Assembly (NCBI GenBank): GCA_026545225.1
Contig: CM048851.1
Span: 30,317,956 to 30,381,955 of the forward strand
DNA: 64,000 nt
Reading direction: 5' to 3'
From: Cornus controversa
Taxonomy: Eukaryota; Streptophyta; Magnoliopsida; Cornales; Cornaceae
Below are positions 19,370 through 54,934 of the stretch, in pieces. Made by a program: the position numbers and the translations under genes. The notes below the pieces were generated by a model, which saw only the letters and a list, made by a program, of their open reading frames with translations, was not told the origin of the DNA and did no database searches. Each line of letters starts with the position of its first letter. The stretch's first letter is position 1.

Positions 19370-19426
<57 letters not shown>

Positions 19427-22652: not shown

Positions 22653-22710
<58 letters not shown>

Positions 22711-28398: not shown

Positions 28399-31300
28399 AT
28401 GGCAACGTTCGAGCTGTACCGTAGGTCGACGATTGGGATGTGCCTTACCGAAACGTTGGACGAGATGGTTTCAAATGGAGTTCTCAGTCCTGAGCTCGCC
28501 ATCCAAGTTCTTGTTCAGTTTGACAAGGTACACCTAAAGCTCCTTAAACATTGTAGTAAACTCTCTCTCTCTCTCTATATATATATATACATACAGTTTT
28601 TTTGTCATATGATTTATTTATTTTTTTATTGTTTACATTGTTGTATGGATTTCAGTCGATGACTGAAGCTCTGGAAACCCAAGTTAAAAGCAAGGTGACG
28701 ATTAAGGTAATGGTTCATTCAGTAAGTTTTGCCTATTTTTATTATCACTTGGGAACAGAATCACTAGTCACATATTGGTGCAAGTTTAATTGATGGTGTT
28801 GAGATTTATGACGTGGTTTTTCTTTTTTTGATAAGTAATATATCATTGAAAGACGCTCAAAAGGGAAATGCAGCCCAAAGACAGAGAGACCAGCTATACA
28901 AACAGAGAATCTACAAAAGACATAATATCTCCCACAGATTTACAATTTCATCCATGTACCCAACAAAATAATGCATGTAGAATAGAGAATTTAAGCACCC
29001 AAGTCATAACCTCGACTCCATCAAAAGTTTATCTGTTCCGATCACACAATAACCCCCACCATAAGCAAAGGGGCACCAGTGCACCACCCTCCAAGCATCT
29101 CGGACTTGCCTCCTCACTGTACAACCTCTCCAAGCCTCAAGCATGCTCTTTGGGGATTTCGGCATGACCAAATGGACGCCAAAGAGAGCAAAAAATAAAA
29201 CCCAACAGTCACGAGCCACCGGACAGTGGAAGAGAAGATGACTAACAGACTTTTCATCTTTCTTACACATGCAACTCCAATTAACAGTAGTCTAACCTCT
29301 CCTTCTCAGATAATCAATAGTCGATATCCTCCCTAAAGCTGCCGTCCACCCGAAAAAGGCCACCTTGAGAGGAGCCTTGGTGCACCAAATGGCTTTCCAT
29401 GGGAAAGAAGACCCGTGATCATCCAATAAGCTCCTATAAAAGGAATGCACCTCAAAAGAACCATGTCTGGACTCCATCCAAAACCATTTGTCAGCCTCAT
29501 CTCCTCCCACCTCCCGGTGACAAAACGGCCAAGAGGTCTTTAATATCTCCCAGCTCCCAATCCTGGACCTGCCTTACAAATTGAATGTCCCAAACCAACC
29601 TCCCATTATCAGAACAAAAGCAATCAGCCACCACCCATCCACAGTTATCTGAAATAGACACGGATAGATGGACTTGAAGGATCAGTCCCCACACCATACA
29701 TCCTTCCAAAAGCGAACCCATCCTTATGAAGTGATTTTTCTTGAAAAAAATAAAAATAAAATTGCTCGCGGTAGTTAGCTACTTGCATTAGTTATAGATG
29801 AGCGAACAAAACACATTCGAAATGAGATTTCATGGTGAATTTCATGCTAATGATATTGTTTTAATTGATGAAACTAGATAATGAGTCAATGTCAAATTGG
29901 AGGATTGGAGGAAAACTCTAGAATTAAAAAGTTTAAGATAAGTAGAAATAAAGTTGAATATATGGAGTGTAATTTTAGTAAATCTAGAAATACAAATAAG
30001 GATATTGTAGATTAAGGATCAAGAGGTACAAAAAAGGTGAACATTTTTGTTATTTAGGCTCAATTATCCGTAATGAGGATGGACTTTGGCGCAACGGTAA
30101 TGTTGTTCCATTGTGACTTGGAGGTTATTGGTTCGAAATCGAAAATAGCCTATCCATGCGGAGGTAAGGTTGTATATATCTGACCCTACACAGACCCCAC
30201 AATGGCGGGAGCCTCATGCACTAGGCTAGCCCTTTTAGGCTCAATTATCCATAATGAAGGAGAATTTGGAGATGATGTTAATCTTAGAATCAAGGCACAG
30301 TGTATCCCGTTAAGATTGAAAGGAAAGTTCTATAGAATAACTATTAAACCAACTATTATTTATGGGACAAAATGTTGGGCAGATAGGAAACAACGCAAGC
30401 ATAAAGTGTGTAGCAAAATTGCGGATGTGCGGTAAGACAAGAAATGATAGAATTAGAAATGAATACATTCGTGAGATGGTTAGAGTAGCACCAATTCGAG
30501 ATACAATTAGAGGAAATCGGTTAAGGTGGTTTGGACATGTGAAAAGAAGACCTTTAAGCGTGTCAGTTAGGAAGATTGACGTGGTCCGCATTGAGGGTGA
30601 TGCTTGAGGAAGGGGAAAACCGAAGTGGGTAGAGTTAGTAAGGAAGAATATGGTAGCATGTGGTTTGACTGAGACTATGACCTTACATAGAGCGGAATGG
30701 AAAAATCGGATTCATGTAGCCGACCCCAAGTAGTTGGGAAAAGGCTTTGTTTGTTGTATTTACAAAAAGTAAGTTTGACAAATAACGAGTGTTTATGCCT
30801 TTTAGCTATGCAACTCATGTAGTACTACTTTCTCTATTATTTTTCTTTTTGTTTCTTGTATGCAAACACTATCTAAAGTAGGTGCCGCCTTTGTGACCTA
30901 AAGGTAGTCCCCTGTTCAAACCGTACAGTACCTCACTTATAAAGTAGTGGTGGGATTTGGGTTCCATATTGTAAAAATTAAATAACTAATTTCAAATGTT
31001 TAGTAGGTTTTGTAGGCAAACATAAGTACCTATAAGTTGTACTAATAGAAAACATCATTTTTTTGGGCGTTGATGCAGATACATTTACATTTCTTTAATG
31101 TCTTTTTTTAATACATGTTCTGTTATTTTTATATCAATATATTTTGTATCTTCATTCTTATCTATGTTATTTAAAGGGATGGCAGGGGTCCGATTTGGGA
31201 TGGGTATCTATTTCCTAAGTTTGTCTAGGAGATTGAGTCTTTTTCAAAATCCATCTTAGCCTTTGACTGGTTGGGTCGAGGTATAACAAAATTTTAGCAG

Positions 31301-34300
31301 GGCAGGTTCTTTAAATCCCGAATCTGCCCCAAACCTGAATCGGGTTCAGCACCTACTTCCAAACATACTATTCTATTTAATTGCTCCCAAATTCGTCCCA
31401 TTAGGGTATGGACCAGGGGCGCGGTTGCCCTCCAGGTTAAATTATCATTCATAAATTATTCATCTTTGGATTAACATTGTTTCTATTTTGATTAGAGAAT
31501 TGAATAGGACTCAAATAGTTGGGGTTATAAGGCTTTGTTAGCTGCTTTACAAGCTAAACATCGACTGATTGTGTATATCTCTGCTACATCTCAGCCTTTA
31601 AAAGAAACTAGTTGATTTTCCTATATAACACTTTAGTCTAATGGTTCTCGGGTTATGTTTCTTGCTTTAGGGTACAAGTTCAAGTTTTCTAACTTCCATC
31701 TTATAAAGTTTCCATATAAATCAAGAAAAGAAGGTTAATACATCTGACTCTCTTTTTCTTTGAGTTTATGCCTCTTTTATCTAATAGATCTCAGGGCTTG
31801 CTAGTACAACTTTTCTCAGAGTTTATGCCATTTTGTTATGTTTTTCTTTTCCTTTGCTATTTCAGACTCATGAAAGTTATATAGGCATGGGGCTGCCATT
31901 TTAGTACTAAATTCCACCCAAAATGTGCAGCATAGCCATGGTTTTCAAAGTCAGGCATGACTGTTATATAACGTGTCAAGACTGTTACCAAACCCTTTAT
32001 GGATTGCGATTAATAGGATCGCGATTACGACACCTGTTACACCAACATCCAAGGTCTGTGAAACGTTCCATCTTTTCAATAGGGTAGCAGAAAACAGCAG
32101 ATAAATTTCATTCAACATATTGGTAGTGCCAAAATTCTCTTAAGATAATATTAGGAACGGCTAATTCAAAACATTCTACCCTCCAGTTTCCCCCAAACAA
32201 AAAAGAAAAAACTAAAGGAAAAGAAAAGTTGTGATCATTTAAAAGAGAGATGATGAAACGAGAGAGTAAACAGTCAAAAGTCGTTTTAATGATATATTGT
32301 TCTACCACATGATGCTTGATGTTATGAATAAATCATGGTTTCCAATATACTAGTTATTGTTCATAATGATTAGCTACTCGCGCCATGTTATATTACTTTA
32401 GATTGTAGGTTGGTTTACAACATCCATCTTCACGTTGACTTCTCACAGAAAAATGCAGCTGGTCCTCCTTGACTAAGAATTACGCTTGTTATTATATGCA
32501 ATGCATCCTAACTCATCATAAAAAGCTTCTCAATTATCTGGTAAGGTGAGAACTGATGCTCCTGTCATTACTTTTTAATCTGTTCAGAAGCCCTTTGTGC
32601 TGAAGTCAACCATTCAGAAGTATCTTCCTTCCAGCTTCCTTTGATGTGGATTCTGGTGTTGGCCATTCCATAAGAACTCAATACTTTCTTGAGATCAGGC
32701 TGAAGTCCATTTATTGAGAACAACAAAGTTAATTAAAAATCTTTTTGCCCAAGAAAACACTTCTTCATGTTCATAATAGAGTTTTTCCTTGCAAATAACC
32801 TTCATTACTTGAGGCAAGTGCACCAAATCCAGTTCTCTTGTCGGGCTGTATATCAATATATTCATCAAAATAAACTAGTACAACTAATTCCAAGAAAGGT
32901 TTGAGTATCAAGCTCATAACTTTCATGAAAGTGCTTGACATTTTATGAAGTCCTAATGGCATCAACAACCACTCATACAATATGTCTAGTTTGGTAAAGG
33001 TTATAAAACATAAATAAAAAAATGAATATAAATTGCTAAAAGTTTTCAGCAATGGATCAAATCAAAAACAATTGCACAGTATGCTATTAGCAAATTTAAT
33101 TTAACGTATCAAAGAAGACATTCAAGCAAACATTTACATATTTTTTGAATGAACTATGTCAATCTTTATATGAAACTCTACGACTTTTAAGAGGTGTTAA
33201 ACCTTTTTTGATTGTTTTGAGATAAGTTTGGGTAGCATCCACCTTAGACTAATAGCTTTAATGTCTCTATTCTTTTTCTTTTTTTACCTGACTACCCTTC
33301 TTTTTCATTTATTATTTTCCAGTTCTTCATCAGCTTTTAATACTTCAATTTGATCACCATGTATTGTTCTTGGGGAGTATACATGTCCTCTAGAAAGTTG
33401 TATATCCTTTCCTACCTTGTTTCTATTCTCTTTGTTTAACTTTAGTCCTCAAAGTGCGATCAGTGGCATTTGAATGCGTAGGTGGGTTTAAAGTTAATAT
33501 CTCAACACTTCTTTTGAATACGTGTTACTCTAAGGCCATGTGGCCCATATCTTTATCATATGCCACAGTCTCCCTAAAGAAATACAAGCATGCTTTATAG
33601 CTATGACATCAAGACAAAACCTCATCATATTAATTATCACCCATAGGAAATTTGAGTAAACATTAGGAAGTCATTGTTGCCTCATTTCCTTTTCGAGACC
33701 GTGCCACTTTGTATAGATTAGGATGCCTCTCGATTGGCAATTTCAAGTTATCTATAGCCTTTATAGGAATAATTCACTGCTACCACCATCAAGGATGGCG
33801 TTGCTTACCTTTCCACCATGATATACTCGGTTTTGGAAATATAGAGGCACCTCCAAGCCTCTTCTTTACCTTGAGCTTACCTTTCCACCATAATATACTC
33901 GGTTTTGGACAATTTGAGGCACCTCCAAGCCTCTTCCCCTATCTTGTGTGTTGTCATGACTTATCACACTATTGGAGACTTCCCTTGTACTGACAAGACA
34001 TCCACATCTTCTTCTTAATAGTTAGACTCATAAATTGGTTTCAATATTTCCTCCTCTTCATCTTCAAATTCAACCACTCTCTCCCTATGATGTGGGCATG
34101 CACAGGATGCTGGATGCATGTCCCCTTCCGCATAAGTTAAAGATTGGCAATTTTTCTTTTGAAGCTTCCGCCAGTGTTGTTTTGAGCTTTGAATCTCAAG
34201 ATTTTGTTGCACTTTTCCTTACTGTCAATACCATCATTGTTTCTTACACTTGTCCAGCTATCTGAGGCAGCCCCTTGGTCAGTTCTTCGGTCTATTTACT

Positions 34301-37300
34301 CAATTCAAGCACCTTGGACAACAGTGTAGTTTTTTGAGTTGCACCACCACTGCATCCAGTTATAGGTTTTCCCACACTGAATGCCACTCACTCTATTTTG
34401 CCATTCCGGTATACAGTCGACTCTTCTAGGTTGAATAATTAATTATTCGCATCTCATCTCTAATGTTCTGATTCAAACCTAAGAGAATTTGAATCAACCT
34501 AAATAGATGGAATGTTAAACTCAAGTGTATTCTTGCATGACATATTCCTTTGCTATAAGTGGAATTTTTTCATATAAACGTGTTACACTGGAAAATAATT
34601 TCTTTTTTAGCTTTGTTTTTATAGTTCCCAATTGTTAATCTTTTGCTTGCTCATCAAGGACGATGCTCTTCAACTCTGTACCAACTTCGAATTTCAATGC
34701 CTTTCTACTTAATTTTCATGAATATCACTTCCCTCTTAGCTATGGTTCTCCACAAAAAATAAATTTCTAAATTTGCTTCCCCATGCAAATAGTTTCTGCT
34801 TGCAGTTTGTCAAAAATCAATTATTGATTCCTCCCTGGTTTAAATTGAGTGCTCTCTCCCCTCTCTCCTTAAATCCACCACCACGTTTAGGTTCAGTCAC
34901 GCCCCGAAATCTGGACCACCGGGACTCCCCCGATTTGAGCCTGAACTCCGAGGAAATGAGGTGTCATGATCGCCCGATCGCCACTCCACGACCCGAACAA
35001 CCATGACAAATACTACCAATATTACCCTTGGTTCCTATTTGGATCACCGAACTCATTACATACAACAGAAGTCTTTACATTTGTCAAATACATCAATCCC
35101 TCACCAGATATACCACAATGATCAACAATCTAAGTTGTGATCTCAAGTCTAGCGGAAGCCTTTCTCATACCCTTATTACAATGTGTACATGCATACATAT
35201 GCGGTTCGAGTCTATTATACGTGTCCTTTATTAAAAACAAGCATGCATAAGCCTTTTTAAAACACTAAGTGGGAACCCATTTCGCATGATTGAAATGCAT
35301 CTTTCGATTGTGTGAAGTGCATTTCGATCAATCGAAATGATGGTTTCGCATGATCAAAAATCTTGCATGATCGAAGTACTTGCGAAGTGTTATCAAGATT
35401 CCACTAGAATTTGACCGAACTTCCATCAAAAATTTCGCAACCAAGTTCGCATAATTAAAGGCATTTTGATTGAGCGAAATAGAGGTTTCGCACAATCGAA
35501 ATCCTCAAACACTGATACTCTGCAGAATTTTTCTATGTGTCATTCTCACACTTTGGTTCCCATTTTAGCATACATACCCTCCATTGTACCGATACGTCAA
35601 CGCAACCATTCTCACAAGTTTATACATGTAAAAATAAACATAAATGAAAAATTATCATTTAAATTGTTTAGCATCTACCATGCTTACAATATAATGAAAT
35701 CATAAGGCATAAACAATACATATTCTCGAAATATAAATAGTCCTTACATGTTCACCACATGCATATAGTCTACAATTCAGACATGCATTCAAATAAAACG
35801 TTTTAAGTCTTTAAATGAAATCAATATTACTCCACGCCAACTTTATCGTTGGGGAGACTCCATCACCTCCTTTCTGTTTTCTGAAAAGAGTTAATACTTG
35901 TGGGATGAGTTACAACGCGTTCAGTAGGAATGTCTAAAACACAATTCCGCAAGTTCCGTTAATACCATATAAACATACATTTGCATTTAGTCATGTTAAG
36001 CAAATGTCTATACATCACAACCATATTATAAGCAATTTACAATGTAACATGATATGCATAACTCCCTAATACTCTCCACACATTTATTGGGTTCAGTTTT
36101 ACGGGCCTCCCAATCCCACCTAACCGAGTCTCCTTTACCGGATCACCCCATCGTAGGACTCCGTTTTAGGGAGTATCCTCATCCATCTAATTGGAGCTTC
36201 TTTATCGGATCACTCCACAAGGGTTACCTTTACTAGAATACCTCGCCTTTAAGTGGACTTTACCACTCCAAATGAACTCACCACCCTCACTGTGTTTCCC
36301 AATGAATTAAGATGGATTCAAAATGCTCATATTAAACTTACACATGCAATTCAAGTTAATGTAACATTTGATTGTCATGCTTGCACATTTTCCAAATAAA
36401 CATCACATATTCTCACATTGAACATGTTTCACATATTGCACATTTCATATCACTTAGATAGACAATTAAACATGTTTCACATTTAAACATGCTTTCAAGA
36501 CATTTTATCAAGCACATAAGTGTCACCTTCACAATTATACATGATTACACATACTGGCTCACAATTCAACCTCAACATGCTTATATAATTATCTAAGGCA
36601 ATTATAAACATGTAATTACATCATTAAACATTGATAAATCACTAAGTAGTATAATCTAGCATGCTTTAACCTTGAAAGACATCTAATTATACCCACATAA
36701 CCAATTGGTTGCCATAAACAACCAACATACTCACAAAAACCCCGGATTTCATTGGTTAGGCATCCCTACCTCAATTTGGAAGAGCTTCCAAATGTTTTTC
36801 CAATTTCTCACAAGAAAATCAACTTTCTCCGAATTCGATTCCGAACGGATCAAACTCGAGTCCTCAATACATAGACCTTCTTCTTCTTATTCGGCGCCTT
36901 CTAATAATCGCTTCAAACCTCTCAAAATCAATGGAGAAGTGAAGAAGAAGATATTATTCTATATAGATATATATTGCTCTCTCTATGCGGCTGATGAGAA
37001 TGAGAATGAATTCAAAAATTCTCTACTTTGTTATTTATAGCCCTAGGTCACCTATTTACGAAATGTCACTAGTCTTTCACTAAACCTTCCCAGACTTCGT
37101 TTTCGATTTCCATAACTCCTACGGACACGAAATTAATTTCATAGTGTATCAAATGTTTTATTTAAGCTACTCTCCAAATTTGGTGTCATTCCGACACTTT
37201 TGGATTTTCTGGGCCGGCGGGGTTCGCATCCCGGGTCCACTTGACCTGAAAAAGTCAACTTTTGTCAAACGCTCCTAAAACTTTCCCGAATACTTATAAA

Positions 37301-40300
37301 GGTCTTTAAATATGTATTTTACATTTAAAACACATTAATAGTCATTTATATGCATTTAAATGAAATAAAAAGAAAACCGGCTAAAAATGATCACGGTTCT
37401 TACAAGTTCCTTCTCAAGTCCTTGTCATTGAAGAAATTAGTGTTTTTCGAGATCAGAATCTTTGGTCTCATGGCCAACTTTCAGTATACCCAAGAGGTCA
37501 TGATTGCTCTCCTTTACCACGATTGGGGCCACTATATGTTCCTTAGATGTAGAATTTGAACAGTTAACAAAAAAATCCACAAAAATGCTTCTTAACTCTC
37601 TCACCTTGGTGGTTTGGACTTGCTGTCTCTTGCTCTGCGTCCTGCCATAAAGAACCATCTACATGTATTGAATTTTGATCTGATATTAGATTTGGTGTGA
37701 AAAATATAGAAAATCAATGGTAATTCAAGAAAAAATAATCAAGAATGCAATAGTCTAAAGGCAATGAGACCCGGGGAAGTTTTGTTTACTAATTCTTAAG
37801 GAGTATAACAAGGAGCTATATACATTCTGTAAATTGTATTTATAGTGCATAGGCAACCTATTTGCCACAATAAAATAAGAGACGTATTCATACCCTCAAG
37901 AGACCGAAGCAGGATACGCTCTTGATCCTTTGTTCCTTTCCCCACCAGTTTGGGAATGCAACGAAGAGCCAGGGGTTGACATTCCGCTGGCAGCTGCTGG
38001 AATAGCAAGGGCGGAGGATAATAATTTCAGCTCTTCAGTGGCAGTGGTTCAGGGAGATAGAACTATGAGAAGTGCGAAGGAAATGGGAGAGCTGATGGGT
38101 CTAACGTTTGTTAGAGAGGATGGGCTTGACCTTGAAACTTTTCATTCTCTAGTGCAAGAATGGGATCAAACCAATTGCAAAAAGAGCTCGTCTAGGAAGG
38201 GAGAGAGAGAACTCAGAAATCTGATATCATATGTGAATTATGATGGGAGAAACGGTGGGAGGAGCGAGAGGAGTAGTGGAGGTAGGAGGGGAGAGGGGAG
38301 GGGAAAAGAATTGGTGTGTTATGAAGCTTAGAATAGTGTCGTGGAATGTCCGGGGGCTAAATGATCCGGATAAAAGAAGAGTGGTAAAGTCCTTAATCCG
38401 TAAGTGGGAGGCACACATTGTTTGCTTGCAAGAATCCAAGATTGTTGATATGACGGTTGGTCTGATAAGGAGTCTTTGGGGAGGTAGATTCATTGATTGG
38501 GAGGCCCTTGAAGCGGTAGGGTCGTCGGGGGGAATCGTGATTCTTTGGGATAAGAGGTGGGTTTCAAAAGTTGATTCGTGGAAAGGGAGGTCTTCTTTAT
38601 CCCTGAAGCTTTCTTTGGAGGAGGATGGATCCCGATTAATTTTCTCCGGGGTGTATGGACCAGTGGGGGGCGTGGAGAGGAGAGGGTTGTGGGAGGAATT
38701 GGAGTCTGTTAGATTGAGGTGGACAGGCCCGTGGTGTGTGGGAGGTGATTTCAATGAGATAAGAGATCCTAGCAAGAGATCTTCAGGGGGGAGAAGAACG
38801 CCAGCGATGTGGGAGTTTTCTGAATTCATCAATGATCATCAGCTTATTGACCTTCCTATGGAAGGAGCTCGATTCACTTGGTCGAGTGGGAGAGAGCATC
38901 CTACCCTCTCTCGTCTCGATAGATTCCTTATTTCGAATGAGTTGGAGGAGAAGTTTCCGGATGTAGCTCAAGTAGCCTTGGCTAGAGCGGTGTCGGATCA
39001 CATTCCCATTATTCTGGATTGTGGTGGGTTGAGCAGAGGGCGATCTCCTTTCCGGTTCGAAAACATGTGGTTGAAAGCGGAGGGTTTCAAGGATAAAGTC
39101 TAAAATTGGTGGACAAGCTATGATTGCAGGGGCAACGCAAGCTACAGATTGGCATATAAACTAAAGCGGTTGAAAGAAGATATCAAAAAGTGGAACAAAG
39201 AAGTCTTTGGAAATCTCAATTGGCATAAGAACAGAGCCATATCAGAAATTTTAGAGTTGGATCGAAAGGAGGGGGAAGAGGGCCTTAGTGATTTGGAGAT
39301 TTGTAGAAGGGAGGAGTGCAAGGCCGAGTTCGGGGCAATTGCAATGATGGAGGAAATTTCCTGGAGACAGAAGTCTAGAGCATTGTGGTTGAAAGAAGGA
39401 GATCGGAACACTAAATTCTTTCACAGAATTGCGAATGCTCGTCGAAGGGGAAATCATATAGGCAGGATCATTGTTGATGGGAATCTGTTATCCAGAGCAG
39501 AGGACATTCAGAGAGAGATTGTGACTTTCTATCAACAGCTTTACACGGAAAACTCTAGGCACAGGCCTTTGTTGGGAGGTCTTGAGTTTGCAGTTATTTC
39601 AGAGGAGGATAGGGTTTGGGTGGAGAGACCCTTTGAGGAAGAGGAAGCGGTGGAGGCTTTGAGAAACTGTGCCGGGGATAAAGCTCCTGGGCCCGATGGC
39701 TTCACGATGGCTTTCTTGCATCAGAATTGGGAGGTGGTTAAGGCGGAAGTGATGGAGTCCCTTTCTGAGTTCCACTCAACAGGGTACTTTGAGAAAAGCC
39801 TCAATGCATCCTTCATCGCCCTTATCCCAAAGAAGGGCGGAGCTGTAGATGCTAAGGATTTCAGGCCAATTAGTTTGGTGGGGGTTATCTACAAGGTGTT
39901 CGCCAAAATTCTCGCTAATTGGTTAAAGAGAGTCTTGGACATGGTGATTTCAGATTCACAGAACTCCTTTGTGGTAGGTAGGCAGATTTTGGATTCTGTG
40001 CTGATTGCAAGTGAGTGTGTGGAGGCAAGGGTCAGAAGTGGCCTTCCTGGAATTGTGTGCAAGTTGGACATTGAAAAGGCTTACGACCATGTAAGTTGGG
40101 ATTTTCTTCTGTATTTATTAGAGAGGATGGACTTCGGGTCTAGATGGAGAAGATGGATACATCAATGTATTTCAACTGTTAGGTTCTCTATTTTGGTGAA
40201 TGGATCCCCAGCTGGTTTCTTTCCTAGCTCTCGGGGACTGAGGCAGGGAGATCCGTTATCTTCTTTTCTGTTTATCATCGTGATGGAAGCCTTCAGCAAA

Positions 40301-43300: not shown

Positions 43301-43717
43301 TAGCAACGGTTGTTTAATTCGCCTTATATCCCAACTATTTCTAAGTTTAAACCGCATTTCCAAGTTTAAACCGTATAAAACTCTTTGATTAGTCTATTCC
43401 AACTATTTCCCAAGTTAAAATTGTCTACCATAGAAGAAGTGACCGTTTAATTAACCTTATTTCCCAATCCCTTTCATTTCATTTCATTTTACAATCATAA
43501 TTGGTAAGTCTTATATCTCAACATTTTTCCATTTTCTTTAACAAATCCTAATTTCTAAGCCCATTGTCTATTGAAGATCAACAGTGTTTAATTTAAGTAA
43601 TGAAATTTTATGAATTTATGTCTTAATGACATACAATTGTATAGCAATATATATGTACACAAACTTTCTAATTATGGATTATTTGGAAATTTGGAGAATG
43701 AAATTAGATTGTTAGAG

Positions 43718-43762
<45 letters not shown>

Positions 43763-46700
43763 TGGTTATGGATTGTTTGGAACATTGTTAATTTTTTTTT
43801 TAAGTTTATGGATTTTATGATAATTGTGACAATGTCAATTTGCATGAAATAAAAATTTATTTTTATTATTTGTTACATTTTATTTTATTGCTTTTACTTT
43901 TATGAAGATATGATATATAAAAAAATAAATAACATGTTTATAGCCGAATTTTTTGTTCCGAATTTTTAACACATACAACGTATTACACGCATATGTATTC
44001 GTATTACGTTTCCGTTTTTTATAGCCGAATTTTTGTAATGTATTTTTTTTTTTAAATCGAATTATACTCGTACGTTTCTGAATCCATCTTTTTCTCATAC
44101 CGTATTTTACTAACTATGAGTACAAGGACCAAAACTTCAGTTTTGATAGAGAATTAACAAAAGGTCCATGATCTAGACCTAGAGAGGGGGGGGATGAATA
44201 GGTCATGTTTGCTGCATTAACTAACTTTGACTACTTTTCAATTTTTAACTAAATCACCAATAATTTAACATAAATCAGAACAAATAAACTGAAAATCTAT
44301 CAATCTATCCCATGAACATATCACATCAATGATATAGAAAGTTATTGTTACGACTAGCCCACACCATGTAGATATTGTCCGCTTTGTACACTCTCCTCTC
44401 AGTGCTCACAATTTTTTTCAAAACGTGTTTACACAGTTAAGAAATGTCCACACATATAAGTGTCATCAAATCTCTTCTCTTGGGCAACGTAGGACGTCAC
44501 AATCACCCCCTCTTGGGACCCAATGCCCTCGTTGACCGGTCTCTCATGAGCTTGTGCACGCTCCCCCTATTTTCGGCTAAGGATTGGCTTTGATACCATT
44601 TAGTGGTCGATACACTCTACCCTCCTAAAAAAAATTTGTCCTCGAAATTTGTGTACCTTATTTCAAGTTGACTTTGGAGTAGTATCCTCCAGTCTAGGTG
44701 GTACAAATACAAAGACTCTAGCTCCACCTTATTGCTTCTTTGTGCTCTGAGTCCCCTATTGTCCACTTAGTTGACGTTTAGGGCAAAATCCAGTTGTGTG
44801 TTCTCTTTCCTTACAGTAATGGCAATTACCCCGAATAGTATAAGGCCCTGTTGTCTTTGCATCTCCCACAGGCACAACAACTTTGGACACTAGTTACTCT
44901 TTGTCATTTTCCTGGCTGTTGTTGACCTTGTCTATTTATAGGACCCTTACCCCTCTGATCTTGTTTCTGTTCCCTCTATCTTCGGTAAGACTCATTATCC
45001 CTCTCTATCACCAAAGCTTTGTCGACTACTTTTGCACAAGTGTCGACTCGATGCCCCACTACTGACTTTCAAATTGAAGGATGCAATCCTTTTTCAAACT
45101 TTCGTACTCTACGCAACTCATCAGTCAACATCTGTGATGCAAAGCGGGACAAATTTCGCCTCATATTGGCTAACAATCAGAGTAGTTCCCTGTGCTAATG
45201 TTAGGAACTCTATTTCCTTTTGCTCTATAATTGTTATAGGGATATATTTCTTAGTGAATTTTGCCTTAAAAGTCTCCCAAGTCATCACCTCCACATCCTC
45301 CATCCGAGTCACTGACTCCCAACAATGGTAAGCACCTCTAGATAGTAAAAATGCTACCAATTTCTGCTTCTGAACCTCTATACATGTCATTAGTCTGAGA
45401 GTCATCTCTACATCAAGGATCCACTTGTCAGCCTCTAGCGGATCCACTGTCTCATTGAAGGATGTAGCACCAAGTCTCCGAAGCTCCCTAACCATAACAG
45501 ACAAGGTCACAGCTCCAGTCGGTTGCACAGGAGCCATTACTCCAGCTACTACTTGTGGTGGTGGAACCTCCTCTAGCTCTCGTCTGCTGATTATTACGCT
45601 CCAACATCTCTAAATGATCGGTCAGTGCTCTAAACATCTCCATTATCTCAGCAGTACTAGGGTTACCAGTCGGTGCTGAAGAAGTACCGGTTGTTGTGCC
45701 ACGGTTTACGGTGCCAAAGCCTGTGCCCTTACTACTGCTTCCACCTCCTCCAGCCATTTCCTTCAATAGGAAATCAAATTGATTAGTCCTATATATTACA
45801 ACTAACGATAACAACTTGAATCAAGACCCCAAATACTCCTAATTCAGATAATTGTTGAGAAAATAAGCCTCCAATCACGTACCACCAAATATTACGATGT
45901 GACGATAAGTAAACAATCACGAAGCAATTTGAAAGAACACACCAAGAATTATATGTGGTTTGGCTAAACAAGCCTATGTCCACGGAGAGCCTGATTTCAC
46001 TATATAGATTGTAACATTACAAATTGAAGAATTGTACCAGCACACTCAACTCTCAACCATTAACCCTTGTACATCCAATTTCACTCAAAAGGAACTCACA
46101 AATTCTAAACAAGAATTCTCTCTCTAAGTGCCCTCTCAAAACAATGAAAGTGACCTCTTAATTTAAAAGAGAGTATTGCCTCTTTTTTTCTTATAAATCT
46201 CAACCTATAACATAGGTAACTATTTATAGAGCCGAATTCCTTGGTGGAAAATGATTACAATTCCTTAATGCCCAAGACTTGCCTAACAAGAACTTTCTTT
46301 CCTTGAGACCAAGACTTATCTGCTAAGAAATTACATAATAAGATACAACTCTCTAATGGAAACCTAATCACAATAGGAATTTGAACCAACCCAACAAAAA
46401 CAACGGTTATGAACAATAGGTTTCACTTAAACCTAAGCTTTGTTAGAGTTCGATATCCTGAAAAGATCTTATACCTAAGCTTTGATATTATTTGTCACGA
46501 CCCGCCCACACTGTGGGAATGGCTAGAGGAGGTGGAAGTAGTGGGGCACAGTCTGTGGCACAACGGCCGGTACTTCTTAAACACTTGTTGGTATAGTGGT
46601 AACCCCGGTACAGCTGAGATAATGGAAATATTTAGAGCACTGACTGATCGTTTAGTGATGTTGGAGCGTGCTAATCAACAGACGGAAGTTAGGGGAGGTG

Positions 46701-49700
46701 ACCCAACACAACCAGAGTGAGTTGGGATAGAGGCACTAGCTCAATAGGAGAGAGTTAGAGAAGAGGTTCCACCACCATAGGTAGTAGCTAGAGTGGCGGC
46801 TCCTATGCAGTCAATTGGAGATCTATCTTTGTCTGCCATGGTTAGGGAGCTTCGAAGATTTGGTGCTACATCTTTCAGTAGGACAGTGGATTTATTAGAG
46901 GCTGACAAGTGGATCAGTGATGTAGAGAAGGCTCTTAAACTAATGACATGTTTAGAGGTTCGGAGGTAGAAATTTGCGGCATTTTTATTGTCAGGAGATG
47001 CTTACCACTAGTGGGAGTCAGTGACTCGGACGGAAGATGTGGAGGTATGACTTAGGAGACTTTTAGGATGAAATTCACTAAGAAGTATATCCCTAGGACA
47101 GTTAGAGAGCAAAAGGCAATGGAGTTCCTATCATTAGAGCAAGGAACTACTACGACTGTTAGCCAGTATGAGGCTAAATTTGCTGAGTTATCCCGCTTTG
47201 CACCTCAGATGATGAGCTGACTAGAGTACGGAAGTTTGAGCGTGGATTGCATCCTTCTATTAGGAAGTCAGTAATGGGGCATCGAGTCGACACTTATGCT
47301 CAAGTAGTGGACAAAGCCTTGGTGATAAAGAGTACCGACGATAGAGGGAACAAAAACAGGATCAAAGGAGTAAGGGTCTTATACAGGGTCAGCAACAGTA
47401 TGGGAAATGACAAAAGGTAACTAGTGGGGACCAGTTCGGAGCTGTTGTGTTTGTAGGAGAGGCGTAGAGAGCGGAGCCTTGTACTTTTTGGAGTAATTGT
47501 CATCTTTGTAAGGAAAGAGGACACACAACTACATTTTGTCCTAAACGTCAACTAGGTGGTCAACAGAGAGCTCAGAGCACAGAACAGCAACAAGGTGGAG
47601 CTAGAGTCTTTGCACTTGTACCACCTAGACTGAAGGATGCTACTCCAGAGTTAACTTGAAATAAGGTACATAAATTTTGGGAATGAAAATTTTTTTGAGT
47701 GTAGAATGTAACGACCACTAAAATTATAATATAAAATAATGATTGTTTAAAGGGGTAAAATTGTGAAATAATAATTAAGTATTTAAAATAATAATAATAA
47801 TAATATAAATATAATCCTAATCTGAATAGGAGAGTCATCTGATTAGGGAGACTATATATACATATATAGGGTTGTCTGCAAACCCTAGGGTTATACAATA
47901 CAAACCGGTCTACCGTCTTGAAGAGAGAGAATTAAAGGAGATTAGAAGAACTTGCAAAACTACCAGGTAAGTGATATTCTACTGATTTACAAGAATTTTC
48001 ATGTCTTAGTAATGTATAGAATTTAAATTAATTAGTTGATAGATAAGAAAATACTCTTTATGTATATATATATATATATATACTGGTGAATATAAATATG
48101 TTGGAACAATCAACAAGTGCTATATATGTGTGTGTGTTTGTGTGTGTGTGAGTGCTTGTGTTTATATGCGGCAGGAACCATGTAATATAGATGTGTGGAT
48201 ATATTTCCAGTAAGTGGAGGATTGTGACTTCTGCATGGCCGAACAAGGATTTGGGCAAGATTTACGTTACATCCTAGTGGAACACTTTGAACCTATGCAT
48301 GTGGGTTGTGTATGGATTAGAACACAACCTGGATTTGCACTTATAATTATTTTCGAAGATTTAAAATTTAGTACACCCATGATCTTGAGATTATTTTAAT
48401 GTCTATTAGGATTATATGGTTGTGTGCAATTCCAATCGAGCTCGTGTAGGCTCACCTAGCCAATTTGTTGGAGGCAGGCCCGGGTGGTACATTACCCACC
48501 ACCTCTGGTTCAGTGGTCGGTGAGTTTGACAGAGCACTCAGGACTCTCGCAAGAGTGGTTGCTGGCTTCTCAGATCATCGGCTAAAAAAAGCATTATGAA
48601 TGTTTGCCTGCCTTTGCTTGGAAGGGTTGGATAAGGAGCCTCTCCTCGAACTGGTCTTGCATAGTATGACATTTATACAATTCTTCATAAATGAATAAGG
48701 CTACGAGATAGAAACATAATATAATCTAAAATCAACAAACCTTGTCCACATGGCTCAACTAGCACACTAAAGTATAAATTTATACAACTCGTCATAAATG
48801 AATAAGGCTACGAGATAGATCATTATATAATCTAAAATCAACAAACCTTGCCTGCCTCTGCTTGGAAGGGTTGGATTAGGAACCTCTCCTCGAACTGGTC
48901 TTGCATAGTATGACATTTATACAACTCATCATAAATGAACGAGGCTATGAGATAGAAACATTATATAATCTCATCATAAATGAATGAAGCTACGAGATAG
49001 AAACATTATATAATCTCGTCATAAATGAATGAGGCTATGAGATAGAAACCTTGTATAATCTAAAATCAACAAACCTTGTCCACGTGTCTCAACTAGCACT
49101 AAAGTATAATCAATCATGAGCCAATTCCTTCTCATCTAAAAATAACAATGGGCATTTTCAACACCTTCAAATTATAGAAACATCTAACATTTCTAGGTAT
49201 TAGCCAATTCGATCACTCTCAAATCACAAGTGCATCCAATTCGCCTAGTGGGAAAATCAATTTCAATTACCTCCCAATCATGACCACATTTTTTTTTTCA
49301 TCTGGTTGACTAGGATGGTACAAGGCTACTGCCTGATCAACCACAAGGCTTTTAAGTGGTCTTCCAGATGATCCATGTGATGTGGGATGTCACAAAAAAT
49401 TTCATGTGAAAACCCCAAAAGAGAAAAATCACGGTTCAGTCGGATCAAATTCACTATATGAAATAGATATTAAACTAGGTTACCCCAGTTTTCTCTTGAC
49501 ACAGACTGATACACCAAACTCACTCAGAGTCTCCAGGCACACAGTCCACTCCATCCACAAATTCGGCAATCTACTTCTTCAATAGCTCTTTAATCTCCAC
49601 ATTAGTCGTCCAAACCAATCTCAAATGAGTAGGTTGATCGTGTTGAACTCTAATTCAGCTCAGCAGTAGTGGATCAACACATGCATAAAGACCCACTAAT

Positions 49701-52700
49701 CTATATGCAAAATGGTTGATGAATGAAAAACAAAATTATATGCACTCAAAAATAACCTCACACAATAAATTGTTTTCTGTTGTATGTATCTACCATATCC
49801 TCCGTGTCTCTGGTTTTCTGAAGTATTTATAGACAAAATAAGTAGTAAAGATTAGGATTCTAGTGTTTTAATCACAATAGGAAACTGCTTTTCCAAATGA
49901 TTCGATTGATCGAGTTCCGATGTCGATCGATCCACATAATTATAATTGCATGAACCGTAATTTGGTGAGTGCATGTATGTGTGTCAAATTACCTTTATAC
50001 CATTGGCTTTAATGATTAACGTTCTACCCTTGATTGTAACTTCATTTCCAATTTTGTCCTTGGACAAGAGGTAACTATCTTGACACTAACTTTCAATAAA
50101 CTAACTGAAACTAAAAATAGAATTACTGATCTTGTTTTTATCACAAAATATGTCATTCTAAGCTCTATTGACCTAACAATCTCCCCTTTGACAAATTCGT
50201 GACAACCATTAAAAAAACTTCATAATACAATACAACTGAAATCAAACATTGATATAGGCTGCAAAATAAACAGAGGCTATAGCCAATTCATTAAATCAAT
50301 GTGTGAGAAACCTATAAACCAATCATAAAAATAAATGTAAGACAATAAGAATTGAACAAAATAAAATAAAATGCCCTTAACATATGCATAACAGACCAAA
50401 CATAATCAATCAAGGTAAACATGTTAAGATAAGCATAATTACTCAATCAAAACATCCATTCTATTCCTTTTTGTCACAAAATTGACAAATTAAGCAATAT
50501 TTAAGAGAGAGACATATAAACAAACTTACTATTTCATTACTTAAAGAAGAAATACACCAATCCAAAAGTGTATTAAAGCTCTAACCAAGTCTTGTTGACT
50601 TGTACAAAATTTGGAGCATGTAGACTAAAAATTAAAACATAGATCATAATCATAATATAACCATAAAGTGCTAGATATATAGAGAAAAAGAGAACCACTA
50701 AGGATTGTTACTACCACTACTGCCACTTGATCCGGCACCTCCATAACTTCTAATCATGTCTTCAATTCGACCCATGTCGTGATGAATGTTTTGCAAGTAT
50801 TGGAGGAGCTCTTGAGGAGAAACAACATCTAGCTGTTTGTTGAGCATCCATGAGCCAAAAGTTGGTCATTGATTGCTCGAGTCTACAATTGTCATCAGTA
50901 GTGGCATAAGAAAATAGTTGAGTCAGGGAATGAGGTGGTGCTGCTGCTGCTTCTTGTTAGGGGAAGTAACCTTCTTTTTCTTCTCCTTCAGAATCACTTG
51001 AGGCGATGTTGACATGATCATATCGAAGATTAGAAGGAAGATGGGAAGTGCTTTGAGTGACCGAAATACGATTGAGAATGCTCTTAGATTTAGTCATCTT
51101 TTCTTGTGGATCAAACTGAACATCACAACTAATCTCAATGATTCATGAGATGAGTTCAAGGAAGGGTAGAGCTTTCCATTTGTTGTTATCTGTCCCAAAA
51201 CACATCATCTTCACAGTTGTCGGGAGAATGATGGCTTCACCCGTTCTAATGTAATACAAAAATTCCAACCTTTGTGTGGAGAGTTCTTGATGATCTTTCA
51301 AATCAATGTTGTGCTCCATTATTTTGTTGAGAATTTGATATTGAGACTTAGGTTGGAAGCCTAGAAACTAGCCAAATTTTGCACTTGTCAGGCACAAAGC
51401 ATGGAGTTGATGTTTTTTTATGTGATGGTGACATTATCACCATGGGCTAAGACCGATCCATTCTCAGGTTGTGCAATACCCATCACATAGCTGATCAATT
51501 TGGGATTAACTACCAATTCTATGCCATCATAAGAAGTTTTAAAGGTCAATTTATCCTAATTGATTTTGTGCATGTTGGAGAAGACTTTCACCGGGGTGTA
51601 GTAAGGAATACCATAGTGCATGCAACCCATTGCTATCCTCAAGAGTTGATCATCCCATCAATCTTACAGGAACTAAACTCGCCAAGTGTGACTCTCCTCT
51701 CCACCACAAGCAAGCGATTAGCATATACCTCATTTGTAGCGTTTCCTTGTGTTTTTTATAATGAGGTGATCATATAGGTCGGTGGAAGTGTATCATGGCT
51801 GCTCCAAGGGTGCATGAGGTTGTGATGATGTACCTTCTCCGTCCTTCTGAGCTCTCTTGGGATTTAAATGAGTTTCGTTACCGGCCATGAGCACAACCAA
51901 GGCAAGTATCCAAAGAGCAAAAGCCATTTGAGAAAACTATAGGGCACAAGAAAGTAGAAAAAGGGTTTAAGAGGGTTCTAGATAAAGAGTACTTAGAGAG
52001 AAGATACAAAGTTGGTATGAAAAAGAGTTAGCAGGGCTTGGTAATTATAGAGGATTTGATAGCCTTGTCCTTTTCTAAGGAGTGGAAGATATGTATTTAT
52101 GGGAGGTAGAAAGTTGGTAGGAAAGGGGTCCTCATAGTTGTGCGTTTTAAATTAGGAAATAATTTCAATCCCTTTGATCCATTGACGAGTCAGTCAAGCT
52201 TACTATTTCCTGTCGATCAATCAAGGTATCGATCTAGGCCTACTAAATTTAATACCCTGTGTCTTTCCAACTTTTGATTGATTGAAATCTTTTTGGAATC
52301 CATTTCAATCGATGGAGACATCGATCAAGGTTGTCTTGATCTCAGCTCTCATTTTTTGCTATTTAGTCGATGATCGACGCACACTGTTTCGAGGATAGTA
52401 CAAGGATTGAAACTCTAGGCTCTGATAGAGAGTTGGCACAAGGTATGTGATCTAGACCTAAAGGGGGAACAGGATTTGTAGGCTGTTTTAACTAACTACT
52501 TTTCAAATTTTTAACTAAATTACCAATAACTTAAACTTAAATGAAAACAATAAACTGAAAATTTGTAAATCCATCATGCCATGAACATATCACATCAATC
52601 ATATATAAAGTAAAGCAATAAGAAGCATGCACAATGGATACCAAGATTTTTACGTGGAAACCCTGAAGGGAAAAACCACAGATCCATTTCCATTCAGATC

Positions 52701-54292
52701 AAATACACTATATGAAAAAGATATTACACTAGGTTAATTGTTCAAAACCCCAGAATTCCTAGTTACCTCTTGACATGGACTGATCTACCAAACTCACACT
52801 CAAAGTTTCCAGGCACACAGTCTGCTCCGTCAACAGATTTCACAATTTGCTTCTTCAAGAGCTCCTCTTTGATCTTCAGAATAGTCGTCCAAACCAATTT
52901 CAGATGAATAGGTAGATCAGCGTTGAACTCTAATTCAGCTCAACAGTAATAGATTCTCAACACATGCATAAAACTCCCCAATCTATATGCAGAACTGTTG
53001 ATGATGAAAAACAGAATTATATGCATTCAAAAATAACCTCACACAATATATTGCTCTTTATTTTATGTCTATTTATTGTATTCTTTATGTGTGGATTTTC
53101 TGAAGTAACGAGGTATTTATAGATAAAATAAAGAAGTTGAGAGGCTAGGGTTTTAGTATTTCAATCACAAAAGGAAACTGTTTTTTTTAATGGTTTGATC
53201 GATCAATTGACGTGTGTCCTGTAGCATTGTTGAGAAAATTTCAAATAAAGTTGTTCCAAAAACTTGTAATGCATATCAAAAAGTATTTTTCCTAATCAAA
53301 ACATGAATTAGGTGACCCTAATTGATGAATGTATGAATCCAAATTTGGTGAGTGCATATATGTGTATCAATTACCTTTGTATCCTTGGCTTTGAAGATTA
53401 CCATTCTGCCCTTGGATAAAACTTTCTTTCCAACTCTACCTTGGACATGACACTGATATTCAAAAAATAACTAAAACCAAAAATAAAAATTATGGACTTT
53501 TGTTTTGATCACGAAATTTGTGAACCCAAGTCCTATTGACCTAATGCTATATTACCTCATTGGAACTTACAATGTCATGTTTGCCTCAACTGATGTTTGC
53601 TTCAATAAATGGTATAGTAAGATCTAAAATTAACAATATGCCACTGCATATATATTTGTGGAATTTGTAACGTTGAATTTCTCATCTCAGTTTTTGCAAT
53701 GGGATTATAATGCCTTTTACCACCACAATCCTCATCTGTGTCGGTTCCTCAACTGATGGTTGCCTCAGTAAATCTGGTAGACTTCAATTACCATCGTGCC
53801 TTGCCATGTATCTTTGCAGGATTTTTAACTTGGAGTTTCTCATCTCAGTTATTGCATTAAGACTGTAAAGTCTCAATGGTTGGCAAATTCATTGATGTGA
53901 TTGAATTACTTGAGCTTGAGACATTATGACTACTGTGTATGCCTTGAAAATTGCTCTTAGTGATAGGATTCTCAGTTGTTCTTTGTTTGGAGTTATTCTT
54001 GCATGCAATCATCGACTACCTGTCATTTTTTGGGTTCTTCTATTGCCTGATTTCTTGTACATCGCTCGCCTGCTTTTGTATTCCTTAATATTTGGGATTA
54101 TGTTGGATCTTAGAGTGAGTTTTATTTTTTCCCTTTTCATGTCTCCTATAGGGACATCTGCACACATACAGATTCTGTGACAACGTTTGGACCTTCATCT
54201 TACAAGATGCTCTATTTAAGAATGAGGACGCCTCGGAGAACGTTGGTCGGGTGAAGATAGTGGCATGTGACTCGAAGCTGCTCATACAATGA
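28399..54292 (+). CDS. TFIIA-S: Transcription initiation factor IIA small (gamma) subunit
   Basis: Three coding exons: 28399-28527, 28656-28706 and 54152-54292 (TGA). All junctions are GT-AG and fall between codons; joined they encode 106 residues, the usual plant length. Exon 1 gives [20 protein letters not shown] and [14 protein letters not shown], exon 2 [17 protein letters not shown], exon 3 [20 protein letters not shown] and ending [13 protein letters not shown]. The N-terminal helical and C-terminal beta-barrel parts of TFIIA-gamma are both present. The protein joins the TFIIA large subunit and stabilises TBP on TATA DNA in the nucleus. Residue 39 is Val, the common form; a V39E change is the rice xa5 resistance allele. 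Intron 1 is 128 bp, but intron 2 is 25,445 bp and loaded with nested mobile elements. An AATAAA lies near 54320. The gene looks intact; whether the long intron is spliced efficiently cannot be seen. Confidence 0.95.
28820..29738 (-). mobile_element. 5'-truncated L1-type LINE, minus strand
   Basis: On the - strand the copy encodes the C-terminal end of L1 ORF2: [53 protein letters not shown], then the zinc-knuckle-like [20 protein letters not shown] and [10 protein letters not shown]. Frames change several times, with a stop after LRRRG and shifts near the 5' end and after DAWRV, so it is dead. It ends in TTGAGCGTCTTTCAATGATA, TACTTATC and an A tail (T run at 28822 on the + strand). It is the same family as the L1 at 38-42 kb and lies just inside TFIIA-gamma intron 2. 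TGGTTTTTCT/TGATTTTTCT on the two sides may be a target-site duplication. Confidence 0.85.
29800..30762 (+). mobile_element. RTE-clade LINE, 5'-truncated
   Basis: The + strand reads [10 protein letters not shown] (reverse transcriptase region, FADD-like site altered), [29 protein letters not shown], then after an inserted [64 protein letters not shown] and [11 protein letters not shown]. It ends HVADPK, a stop, LGKGF and the RTE tail GACCCCAAGTAGTTGGGAAA. Several stops and frameshifts are present (for example TAA/TGA within ETR..VNVKL, and TGA after EGDA at 30605-30607). Only the last third of the ORF is present, the usual outcome of 5' truncation. It lies in TFIIA-gamma intron 2. Confidence 0.88.
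30079..30236 (+). mobile_element. Au-type SINE inserted in the RTE LINE
   Basis: A 158-bp unit with an A-box-like TTTGGCGCAACGGTAATG, a B-box-like GGTTCGAAATC, GTAAGGTTG, GACCCTACACAGACCCC and the end GGGAGCCTCATGCACTAGGC plus TAGCCCTTTT matches the plant Au SINE layout as recalled. It is flanked by a target-site duplication: AGGCTCAATTATCCGTAATG(AGG) at 30056-30078 and AGGCTCAATTATCCATAATG(AAGG) from 30237. The second copy reads on in the LINE frame ([10 protein letters not shown]), so the SINE clearly landed in an existing LINE. Confidence 0.9.
30763..32600. other. Intron DNA without a recognised element
   Basis: Holds a possible worn SINE near 30880-30970 (CCCTGTTCAAACCGTAC resembles a B box) and a G-rich GGGATGGGTATC / CGAATCTGCCCC stretch near 31170-31400 that looks repeat-derived. 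No coding homology was recognised. Confidence 0.4.
32600..37940 (-). mobile_element. Ty3/gypsy LTR retrotransposon fossil, minus strand
   Basis: A - strand reading frame around 33052-32771 reads [20 protein letters not shown] followed by a VVYFDD-like [10 protein letters not shown], which is a Ty3/gypsy reverse transcriptase signature. Upstream on the same strand, gag-like charged sequence lies about 34200-34000, and a primer-binding-like site (ATATCAGATC, TGGTATCAGAGC type) is near 37677. The order leader, gag, reverse transcriptase agrees with a single - strand element whose right end is near the start of the L1. It is clearly broken in many places and old. A probable solo LTR is inserted within it. 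Both ends are approximate. Confidence 0.65.
34895..37404. mobile_element. Probable solo LTR, ~2.5 kb, nested in the gypsy fossil
   Basis: The left edge near TCACGCCCCGAAATCTGG and the right edge CACGGTTCTTACA resemble the two ends of a long plant Ty3/gypsy (Tekay/Del-like) LTR. Five-base flanks GGTTC and AGTTC may be the target-site duplication. Between them is non-coding DNA with TTTCGCATGATCGAAA-type repeats (35280-35510) and a TATA-like region near 36960-37040. On either side the sequence fits the interrupted - strand gypsy element. No internal retroelement genes are present, so a solo LTR is the simplest reading. Confidence 0.55.
37940..38331 (+). pseudogene. L1 ORF1 C-terminal part
   Basis: The frame reads [20 protein letters not shown] then [15 protein letters not shown] and a basic Gly/Arg/Ser tail, ending TAG at 38329-38331. 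Plant L1 ORF1 proteins are nucleic-acid-binding, with an N-terminal DUF4283-type domain and a zinc knuckle; neither is present here because the element is 5'-truncated. The assignment rests mainly on its position just before ORF2. Confidence 0.6.
38321..41965 (+). pseudogene. L1 ORF2: endonuclease and reverse transcriptase, two in-frame stops
   Basis: One frame of 1,214 codons is interrupted only by TAA at 39101-39103 and TGA at 40496-40498; no frameshift is needed. The N-terminal APE-type endonuclease has [45 protein letters not shown] and SDHIPI. The reverse transcriptase follows with [75 protein letters not shown] and the catalytic box YVDD (more often FADD or YADD in plant L1). The C-terminal part has [58 protein letters not shown] and the Cys-His knuckle [18 protein letters not shown]. 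These enzymes nick DNA and copy the LINE RNA at the target. The copy cannot make full protein as it stands. Confidence 0.92.
42505..42874 (+). mobile_element. L1-type LINE, short 3' fragment
   Basis: Encodes [32 protein letters not shown] and [14 protein letters not shown], then after a stop [15 protein letters not shown], matching the C-terminal end of the L1 upstream. A short [12 protein letters not shown] duplication is inside. It ends GGGTGTTTAATGATATTTTA, CACATT and an A run at 42867-42874. It follows a (CCA)n run and is only 370 bp long. Confidence 0.85.
42880..44110. other. AT-rich intron DNA with a TA microsatellite
   Basis: No coding homology was seen. A TA run of about 40 bp lies at 43718-43759. 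Short repeated words AAGTTTAAACCG recur near 43340-43370. Confidence 0.5.
44117..44346 (-). repeat. First piece of the split LTR
   Basis: Matches about the first 230 bp of the right-hand LTR (AGTACAAGGA, GATCTAGACCTA, TTTTTAACTAAAT, CATGAACATATCACATCAAT). The match stops at the TGTTACGACTAGCCC border of the inserted element. Confidence 0.7.
44346..45780 (-). mobile_element. Gag-only Ty3/gypsy fossil, minus strand copy
   Basis: Read on the - strand: a start [13 protein letters not shown], then [71 protein letters not shown] and VSQYEAKF, which is a typical plant Ty3/gypsy gag. A CCHC-knuckle remnant and an element end region with LTR-like sequence (GTTACGACTAGCCCACACC on the + strand at 44347) follow. 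No protease, reverse transcriptase or integrase sequence is present. The copy is broken. It occupies the left half of the insertion in the split LTR. Confidence 0.7.
46494..48480 (+). mobile_element. Gag-only Ty3/gypsy fossil, plus strand copy
   Basis: Read on the + strand: [63 protein letters not shown] and [11 protein letters not shown], closely related to the - strand copy next to it. Gag is followed by the same short end region as in the other copy and then by an LTR-like stretch starting TGTAACGACCACTAAA near 47705, with a TATA-like CTATATATACATATATAG near 47848. No pol genes are seen. Broken, with several lesions; the right edge is approximate. Confidence 0.65.
48595..49095 (+). repeat. 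Compound tandem repeat cluster
   Basis: Five copies of CATAAATGAATAAGGCTACG followed by AGATAGAAACATTATATAAT occur with spacings of about 43-140 bp. A longer unit starting TGCTTGGAAGGGTTGGAT and including GAACTGGTCTTGCATAGTAT occurs twice, about 243 bp apart. The cluster lies inside the insertion that splits the LTR, between the plus gag fossil and the resumed LTR. Confidence 0.85.
49385..50178 (-). repeat. Second piece of the split LTR
   Basis: Matches the rest of the right-hand LTR from CAAAAAATTTCATGTGAAAA to TATTGACCTAACA. A small part of the LTR at the join (about 20 bp of the right copy) is not seen in either piece. Confidence 0.7.
52396..53546 (-). repeat. 5' LTR of the split element (intact copy)
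   Basis: This is the unbroken LTR copy and serves as the ruler that shows the left copy is split. It contains a T-rich TATA-like region (ATTTATAGATAAAATAAAG near 53110 on the + strand) and the shared words listed for the whole element. Confidence 0.7.
53580..53880 (+). repeat. Diverged ~163-bp tandem duplication in intron DNA
   Basis: CCTCAACTGATGTTTGCTTC ... GAATTTCTCATCTCAGTTTT at 53583-53690 is repeated as CCTCAACTGATGGTTGCCTC ... GAGTTTCTCATCTCAGTTAT at 53746-53860. Divergence is high, so it is an old duplication. It lies close to the last TFIIA-gamma exon in DNA that is probably native intron. Confidence 0.75.
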
Positions 54293-54934
54293 GATGCCAC
54301 ATATAAACGATAATGTTCAATAAACGGTTTTATTTCAGTCCGGTGGTAGTAGAGGGGATGTTGTAAGAGAAGAAAGGAGGTACTTATCCAGTCAGTTGTA
54401 GTCGCAGGCAAGAGATGAAAGATCGAACACTTGTAAAAAACATCAAACTGCGCACGATTATAATTGCCGGATGTCATTTAACCACAATGCGTGTGCTTTC
54501 ATCTGGAGTCTCTTATTTTATATAAGTTAGATGCCTTATAGCTTGAACATTTTGAATATGGCTTAATTGTGTTGCAATGATGGAATAGGATCTTCCTTCA
54601 AGTGACTTGGGCTTGTGCCTTTGTTTTCATTGTATGAATGGATTGGTTAATTTGGAACTCTGTTCATGAAAATATTGGATCAGTAATGTAGTACTTATCC
54701 ACAAAACTAACCTTCAAGTGTTTTAGTTTAGTAGTACTTTTCATCTTTCAAAATAAAAGGTTCGAGTTCAAGTTCTCTCATGGTGGGTATGGTTAGTGTG
54801 TGAGTTTAAGGTTTAGAACTTCTTTTTTCTCCTCTTTTTTCTTTTTCTTTTTTTTTGAGTAAATTACACAATTCCTGTGGATAGGGTAAGTTATAGAAAC
54901 TTCACCTTAGTTTTGAAAAATTACACTCACCTAT
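54293..54934 (+). other. 3' region of the TFIIA-gamma gene
   Basis: AATAAA near 54320 and further AT-rich sequence likely hold the polyadenylation region. GGTTCGAGTTCAAGTTCTC near 54762 resembles a SINE B box, but no full SINE was defined. Confidence 0.45.

Follow-up and report, generated by a model that had tools for sequence, protein, structure and literature searches.

The window under study, a 64,000-nucleotide stretch of DNA from Cornus controversa, contains a gene for TFIIA-gamma on the forward strand. Its three coding exons lie at 28399-28527 (129 bp), 28656-28706 (51 bp) and 54152-54292 (141 bp, including the stop codon), and were placed by joining of the coding sequence and by Pfam; exon 1 can also be aligned to the corresponding exon of a paralogue on another contig, C10, and exon 3 was recovered in the genome search described below. 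The exons are separated by a 128-bp intron 1 (28528-28655) and by an intron 2 of 25,445 bp (28707-54151), which has GT-AG ends and is in phase 0. Spliced by script on the window sequence, they read in frame as a 321-bp coding sequence for 106 amino acids plus a stop. The original prediction, that the exons flanking this interval join in phase to yield a TFIIA-gamma protein and that a coding sequence of 321 bp is stretched over 28399-54292, was thereby confirmed to the exact coordinate.

The window gene is a complete, plant-length TFIIA-gamma gene, with both domains in one 106-residue chain. TFIIA_gamma_N (PF02268) matched residues 4-49 with an E value of 3.1e-22 and TFIIA_gamma_C (PF02751) residues 60-101 with an E value of 7.3e-22, both above the Pfam cut-off, and intron 2 falls after residue 60, separating the helical N domain from the C-terminal domain. 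The human TFIIA subunit 2 chain matches residues 3-102 (E 3.1e-30), and the solved yeast TFIIA chain likewise matches the protein. A TATA-like box, TATATAAGG, found by eye at 27999-28007 on the forward strand, probably represents the core promoter. The rice TFIIA-gamma encoded by Xa5/xa5 is described in two papers as a 106-residue protein specified by four exons, one of them non-coding (PMC8978965, PMC5681966). The Cornus protein resembles it in length, and its residue 39 is V, as in the other plants named there (PMC8978965, PMC5681966). Coding exons number three in each Cornus paralogue, the plant layout being three coding exons and a non-coding 5' exon, and a 3' splice-like site immediately 5' of the ATG, common to the window gene and the C10 paralogue, is in keeping with a non-coding first exon as in Xa5.

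Intron 2 is far longer than its counterpart in the paralogue (25,445 vs 2,427 bp) and mostly repetitive, and is by these criteria a large transposon-filled plant intron. About ten insertions or remnants of five kinds were recognized, namely L1-type LINEs, an RTE-like LINE, a SINE, LTR elements and a hAT-like MITE. The original prediction of five kinds of element and a minimum of eight copies holds, since ten can be listed, of which an antisense gypsy remnant is a tentative member. The names RTE, Au SINE and hAT should be taken as presumptive. The listed limits, some of them approximate or drawn by eye, sum to ~22.0 of the 25.4 kb, with 30776-32700 (~1.9 kb) outside the sum. The intron has 47 ORFs of at least 75 amino acids, 23 of which were scanned with Pfam, one batch of 10 giving no match at E 0.05, and neither an Rfam match nor an ARAGORN gene was obtained in the window.

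Nearest to exon 2 lies an antisense, 5'-truncated fragment of an L1-type LINE (28825-29723; zf-RVT, E 9.2e-10), bracketed by TSDs at 28806-28824 and 29724-29742 that agree at 17 of 19 positions, a match equalled by 0 of 300 shuffles. It is followed by a sense 3' fragment of an RTE-like LINE (29794-30775), which shares a 71-bp repeat, at 91.5%, with positions 2700-2769 of the window and whose ORF at 30341-30604 is without a Pfam match. Into this fragment a sense, Au-type SINE (30077-30233) is inserted, with a TSD matching at 23 of 24 positions (0 of 300 shuffles as good). An antisense gypsy-type LTR remnant may extend, within approximate limits, over 32700-37880; it was drawn from translations by eye and from a weak RVT_1 match (E 0.0077 at 32774-33061, below the cut-off), and is split by a 2.5-kb LTR-like unit at 34895-37404. 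The latter, for which no strand was assigned, resembles a solo LTR, its partner not being seen in the intron, and has a TSD of GGTTC/AGTTC (4 of 5). When the query 34905-37406 was compared with the genome, at least 57 matches were found among the best 40 of 5144 candidates, the only ones scored, and near-full-length relatives in this set were 78-83% identical.

A longer sense L1-type LINE, 5'-truncated and with an approximate left limit, occupies 37880-42043 and matches Exo_endo_phos (1.5e-14), RVT_1 (3e-34) and zf-RVT (2.2e-22); its ORF2 frame is interrupted by two in-frame stops. A second sense L1 3'-end fragment at 42496-42870 was recognized by self-matches to 41723-42040 and 29051-29175. 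TSDs were looked for around both and not found (42 and 111 of 300 shuffles, respectively, as good). The remainder is dominated by an antisense LTR block of ~10.4 kb (43118-53544), which belongs to a dispersed family. It consists of LTR A, which begins to the left of a MITE, runs to 44345 and resumes at 49392-50176, an internal region (50177-52396), and LTR B (52397-53544), which forms the right edge of the block. LTR A contains the 962-bp MITE in sense orientation (43157-44118), with a perfect 8-bp TSD, AGTACAAG. This MITE, which we take to be hAT-like from the TSD length, has at least 65 matches in the genome (best 40 of 153 candidates scored), and one such copy, L017, has an 8-bp TSD of its own. 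LTR A is also interrupted by a ~5-kb insert without an assigned strand (44346-49391), which shows TG...CA ends by eye, a Retrotrans_gag match (E 1.1e-7) and two gag copies in opposite orientation (44599-45761 and 46515-47722) with 84% ungapped identity over 1113 sites. The gag copies belong to a low-copy family and are each other's closest relatives (36 matches, all 32 candidates scored). Neither the LTR block nor the ~5-kb insert showed a clean TSD; TSDs are supported for four elements of intron 2. Between LTR B and exon 3, 53545-54151 is retained host intron on the forward strand that can be aligned to the paralogue. Nesting three deep had also been predicted: two levels are evident, the SINE in the RTE-like LINE and the MITE and ~5-kb insert in LTR A, while a third is plausible and depends on whether the inverted gag copies are separate insertions in the ~5-kb insert.

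The genome searched was a 771.7-Mb assembly in 61 contigs. TFIIA_gamma_C gave two matches (10 of 10 first-look candidates scored) and TFIIA_gamma_N also gave two (5 of 5 candidates scored), in each case the window gene and a locus on C10, so that by domain-family search the genome has exactly two TFIIA-gamma loci. The C10 paralogue is intact, has an identical exon layout with introns of 144 bp and 2,427 bp, and encodes a protein identical to that of the window at 98 of 106 residues (8 differ). The original prediction would be undone by a second intact TFIIA-gamma locus accompanied by an unspliced window copy; of these two, the former is present, with its short intron 2. The reading of one gene whose exons are in phase across a pile of transposons thus stands, whereas its emphasis on a load borne by a basal factor has shifted, since with an intact paralogue this factor does not depend on splicing of a 25-kb intron alone.

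When 50 kb around the C10 locus was compared with the window by BLAST, 17 rows were obtained, of which 12 were collinear and on the same strand and 5 were not; nine of the collinear rows fell in the gene upstream and three in the TFIIA gene. The C10 locus is therefore a segmental or whole-genome duplicate. The exon 2/3 split falls on an identical residue in the two genes, and the local sequence at both splice sites of intron 2 is kept. These data bear on the idea that the exon at 54152 comes from a different transcript, exons 1 and 2 being a truncated gene. Such a view might draw on the large distance between exons 2 and 3, but the phase fits, the paralogue is split at the same residue with its exons 2.4 kb apart, and the genome-wide domain searches yielded no N or C domain outside these two loci; it is therefore extremely unlikely.

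The middle of the C10 intron 2 aligns poorly with the window, and 2,427 bp is its present size, from which the ancestral size may differ. A weak collinear match between the introns at 33479-33513 (E 0.18; translated E 1.3e-4 over 13 residues) may represent an old gypsy remnant common to both, or two insertions of one family. Separately, translations inspected by eye point to an antisense gypsy-like remnant within the C10 intron itself, at about 8700-9220 of L006.

Comparison of the two introns revealed empty sites for two of the insertions. The antisense L1 fragment is absent from the paralogue, which holds a single copy of the target site, and its flanks (28707-28823 and 29724-29793) match adjoining paralogue stretches. 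The ~10.4-kb LTR block is likewise absent: 43092-43117 (E 1e-4) and the sequence from 53547 onward match adjoining stretches, homology resuming at the right edge of LTR B (53545-53547). When gaps were cheap (gap-open 4 and 7), global alignment produced small spurious blocks all along the intron, and blocks were accepted only if they recurred at a higher gap cost or in BLAST. At gap-open 9 a reversed-sequence control reached 9.2 vs 445.9, on an unequal footing, since the control was without the exons and the 3' end of the intron. As the paralogue lacks both the L1 fragment and the LTR block, much of the growth of the intron appears to postdate the duplication. An assembly artefact, in which exons 2 and 3 were bridged by a false join of unrelated repeats, might be suspected because misjoins commonly fall in repeats. 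Nonetheless, the window is without any N, TSDs bracket the antisense L1 fragment, the SINE and the MITE, and the right edge of LTR B coincides with the resumed homology while the left flank of the block matches the same paralogue site, all of which makes a misjoin hardly credible.

LTR A and LTR B are probably the pair of one insertion. LTR A is only marginally the closest long relative of LTR B (75%, vs 74% for another copy, among the best 40 of 517 candidates), and LTR B may have inserted on its own. The K2P distance between them is 0.208 over 763 sites and 0.192 over 209 sites. In comparison, the introns of the paralogues diverge by 0.249, 0.264 and 0.34, the first two values being from two stretches of the host intron retained beside exon 3, and their synonymous sites by 0.316. 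If A and B are one pair, their lower divergence makes the block younger than the duplication, in agreement with the empty site, and the block would have been present for much of the time since. Because methylation-prone transposons may diverge faster, this age may be overstated.

Has the window copy remained a working gene over that time? The alternative is that it is a recent pseudogene, with transcripts stopping in the intron and the C10 paralogue supplying all TFIIA-gamma. The intact second copy, the sense orientation of LINEs within intron 2 and the presence there of 29 sense-strand AATAAA hexamers (a raw count) are what might be expected of such a gene. However, the window copy retains an intact reading frame, both its start and its stop codon, and the local sequence around its splice sites. 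The pairwise dN/dS, taken over both branches together, is 0.145 (dS 0.316, dN 0.046); the coding sequences differ at 29 positions, 18 of the changes being synonymous and 11 nonsynonymous by the NG86 count. The human sequence polarizes two of the eight differing positions (11 and 53), and at both the window copy keeps the common residue and the paralogue has changed, so that these positions give no sign of excess change in the window copy. Furthermore, neutral simulations rarely left the frame intact. With a branch derived from the LTRs, the probability of an intact frame was 0.00035 or 0.0006 in two analyses, and 0 of 60,000 runs were both intact and within eight amino-acid changes. The joint probability was 0.00018 with the divergence of the gag arms and 0.019 at half the branch (0.05); when indels were left out, an intact frame alone had a probability of 0.23 and the joint outcome 0.00025.

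Provided that LTR A and LTR B give the age of the block, these simulations make a long-dead window copy improbable, and together with the pairwise dN/dS they speak for continued production of protein from this copy. The gene was most likely working while its intron swelled, and intron 2 would then have been removed well enough. A loss of the window copy that was very recent relative to the age of the intron would leave no trace; with this included, we consider the pseudogene view unlikely. The reading that we favour with considerable confidence, as one drawn from sequence, is that the TFIIA-gamma gene in the window is functional, belongs to a pair of duplication paralogues, and had its intron 2 enlarged by successive transposon insertions.

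The following course of events can be proposed. A segmental or whole-genome duplication would have left two TFIIA-gamma paralogues, and intron 2 of the window copy would have expanded stepwise to 25.4 kb, with at least two insertions after the duplication. The spliceosome presumably still joins exon 2 to exon 3 over this interval, since the sequence immediately around the splice sites is preserved. The bulk of transposons probably resides in silenced chromatin, and reading through it would require the usual plant machinery of the IBM2/EDM2 type. The insertions may have been tolerated owing to their position, clear of the conserved ends of the intron, and to the paralogue, which would make up for lost output. 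A further conceivable view is that the paralogues divide labour by intron length. The 25-kb copy would be slow and chromatin-dependent, silencing of its intron adjusting both the delay and the early polyadenylation, and the 2.4-kb copy would provide a constant basal amount. In that case the amount of a general transcription factor would follow the state of the transposons that its gene carries, but we regard this as quite improbable.

The observed/expected ratio of CpG is 0.50 in the whole intron, 0.53 in the 27 kb upstream and 0.31 in the paralogue intron, and by observed/expected ratios neither CpG nor CHG depletion separates intron 2 from its surroundings. A consensus scan for recursive splicing found one YAG|GTAAG site in intron 2, at 47964, a raw count that speaks neither for nor against such splicing, and none with the stricter pattern that includes a pyrimidine tract. 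The inverted gag arms would form a long hairpin in the pre-mRNA; a trans-silencing role for it was considered and is not proposed. The arms have two perfect 21-nucleotide runs in common and none longer, and beyond the window no match to them exceeds 77% identity (in the same search, with all 32 candidates scored), so that few good targets would remain.

A giant intron laden with transposons is a known plant phenomenon, and the present case belongs with examples from grapevine, conifers and rice. In the grapevine survey, large introns exceed 3 kb, one class exceeds 20 kb, and more than 80% of their content is repetitive, with LTR elements and LINEs prominent and recent LTR insertions stressed (PMC3058033). 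The Cornus intron is similar in being longer than 20 kb and filled with repeats, among them LTR elements and LINEs, but differs in the age of its LTR copies, which with 82-83% identity at the sites aligned are old (PMC3058033). Conifers are described in one report as having a few very long, repeat-rich introns, with lengths above 10 kb reported, that are conserved across lineages (PMC4108047). Here too a very long repeat-rich intron sits in an otherwise ordinary gene, whereas in Cornus it is confined to one of the two paralogues (PMC4108047). For rice, 5,809 heterochromatic introns in 4,227 gene models (~11%), many in transcribed genes, are reported, as is early polyadenylation upon loss of OsIBM2 (PMC7145194); in Arabidopsis the epigenetic state of intragenic transposons influences the use of poly(A) sites (PMC10241880). 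The IBM2 introns of both species resemble ours in that transposons lie in introns of apparently working genes; chromatin state and IBM2 dependence were measured there (PMC7145194). In the one library searched, no paper was found on a transposon-laden intron of TFIIA-gamma or on intron expansion between paralogues.

The interest of the locus lies in the paralogue pair as a natural comparison, and not in a new kind of intron. Two near-identical proteins (98/106) are encoded in one nucleus by genes whose second introns differ tenfold in length (2,427 vs 25,445 bp), mostly by transposons. Such a pair provides a within-genome test of what a heavy intronic transposon load costs in the time needed for transcription, in the accuracy of splicing and in expression, and could reveal which of the copies relies on factors of the IBM2 type. 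The locus further illustrates how far a small gene for a general factor can be stretched while its coding sequence stays constrained.

Several features surround the gene. Upstream, at 18350-23200 on the forward strand, is a rhamnogalacturonate lyase gene (Pfam Rhamnogal_lyase, fn3_3 and a CBM-like domain) that is collinear with C10. Its aligned span is about 12 kb on C10 vs 4.8 kb in the window; since the lyase gene is longer on C10 and the TFIIA intron longer in the window, growth in gene length after the duplication appears to have run both ways. A ~120-bp repeat occurs in several copies upstream (27014-27688) and downstream (54930-55056) of the TFIIA gene, 73-79% alike, and a 207-amino-acid antisense ORF at 3784-4407 resembles Transposase_32 (E 7.3e-6, below the family cut-off). 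The right end of the window, 62062-64000, is taken up by tandem arrays with units of ~40-110 bp.
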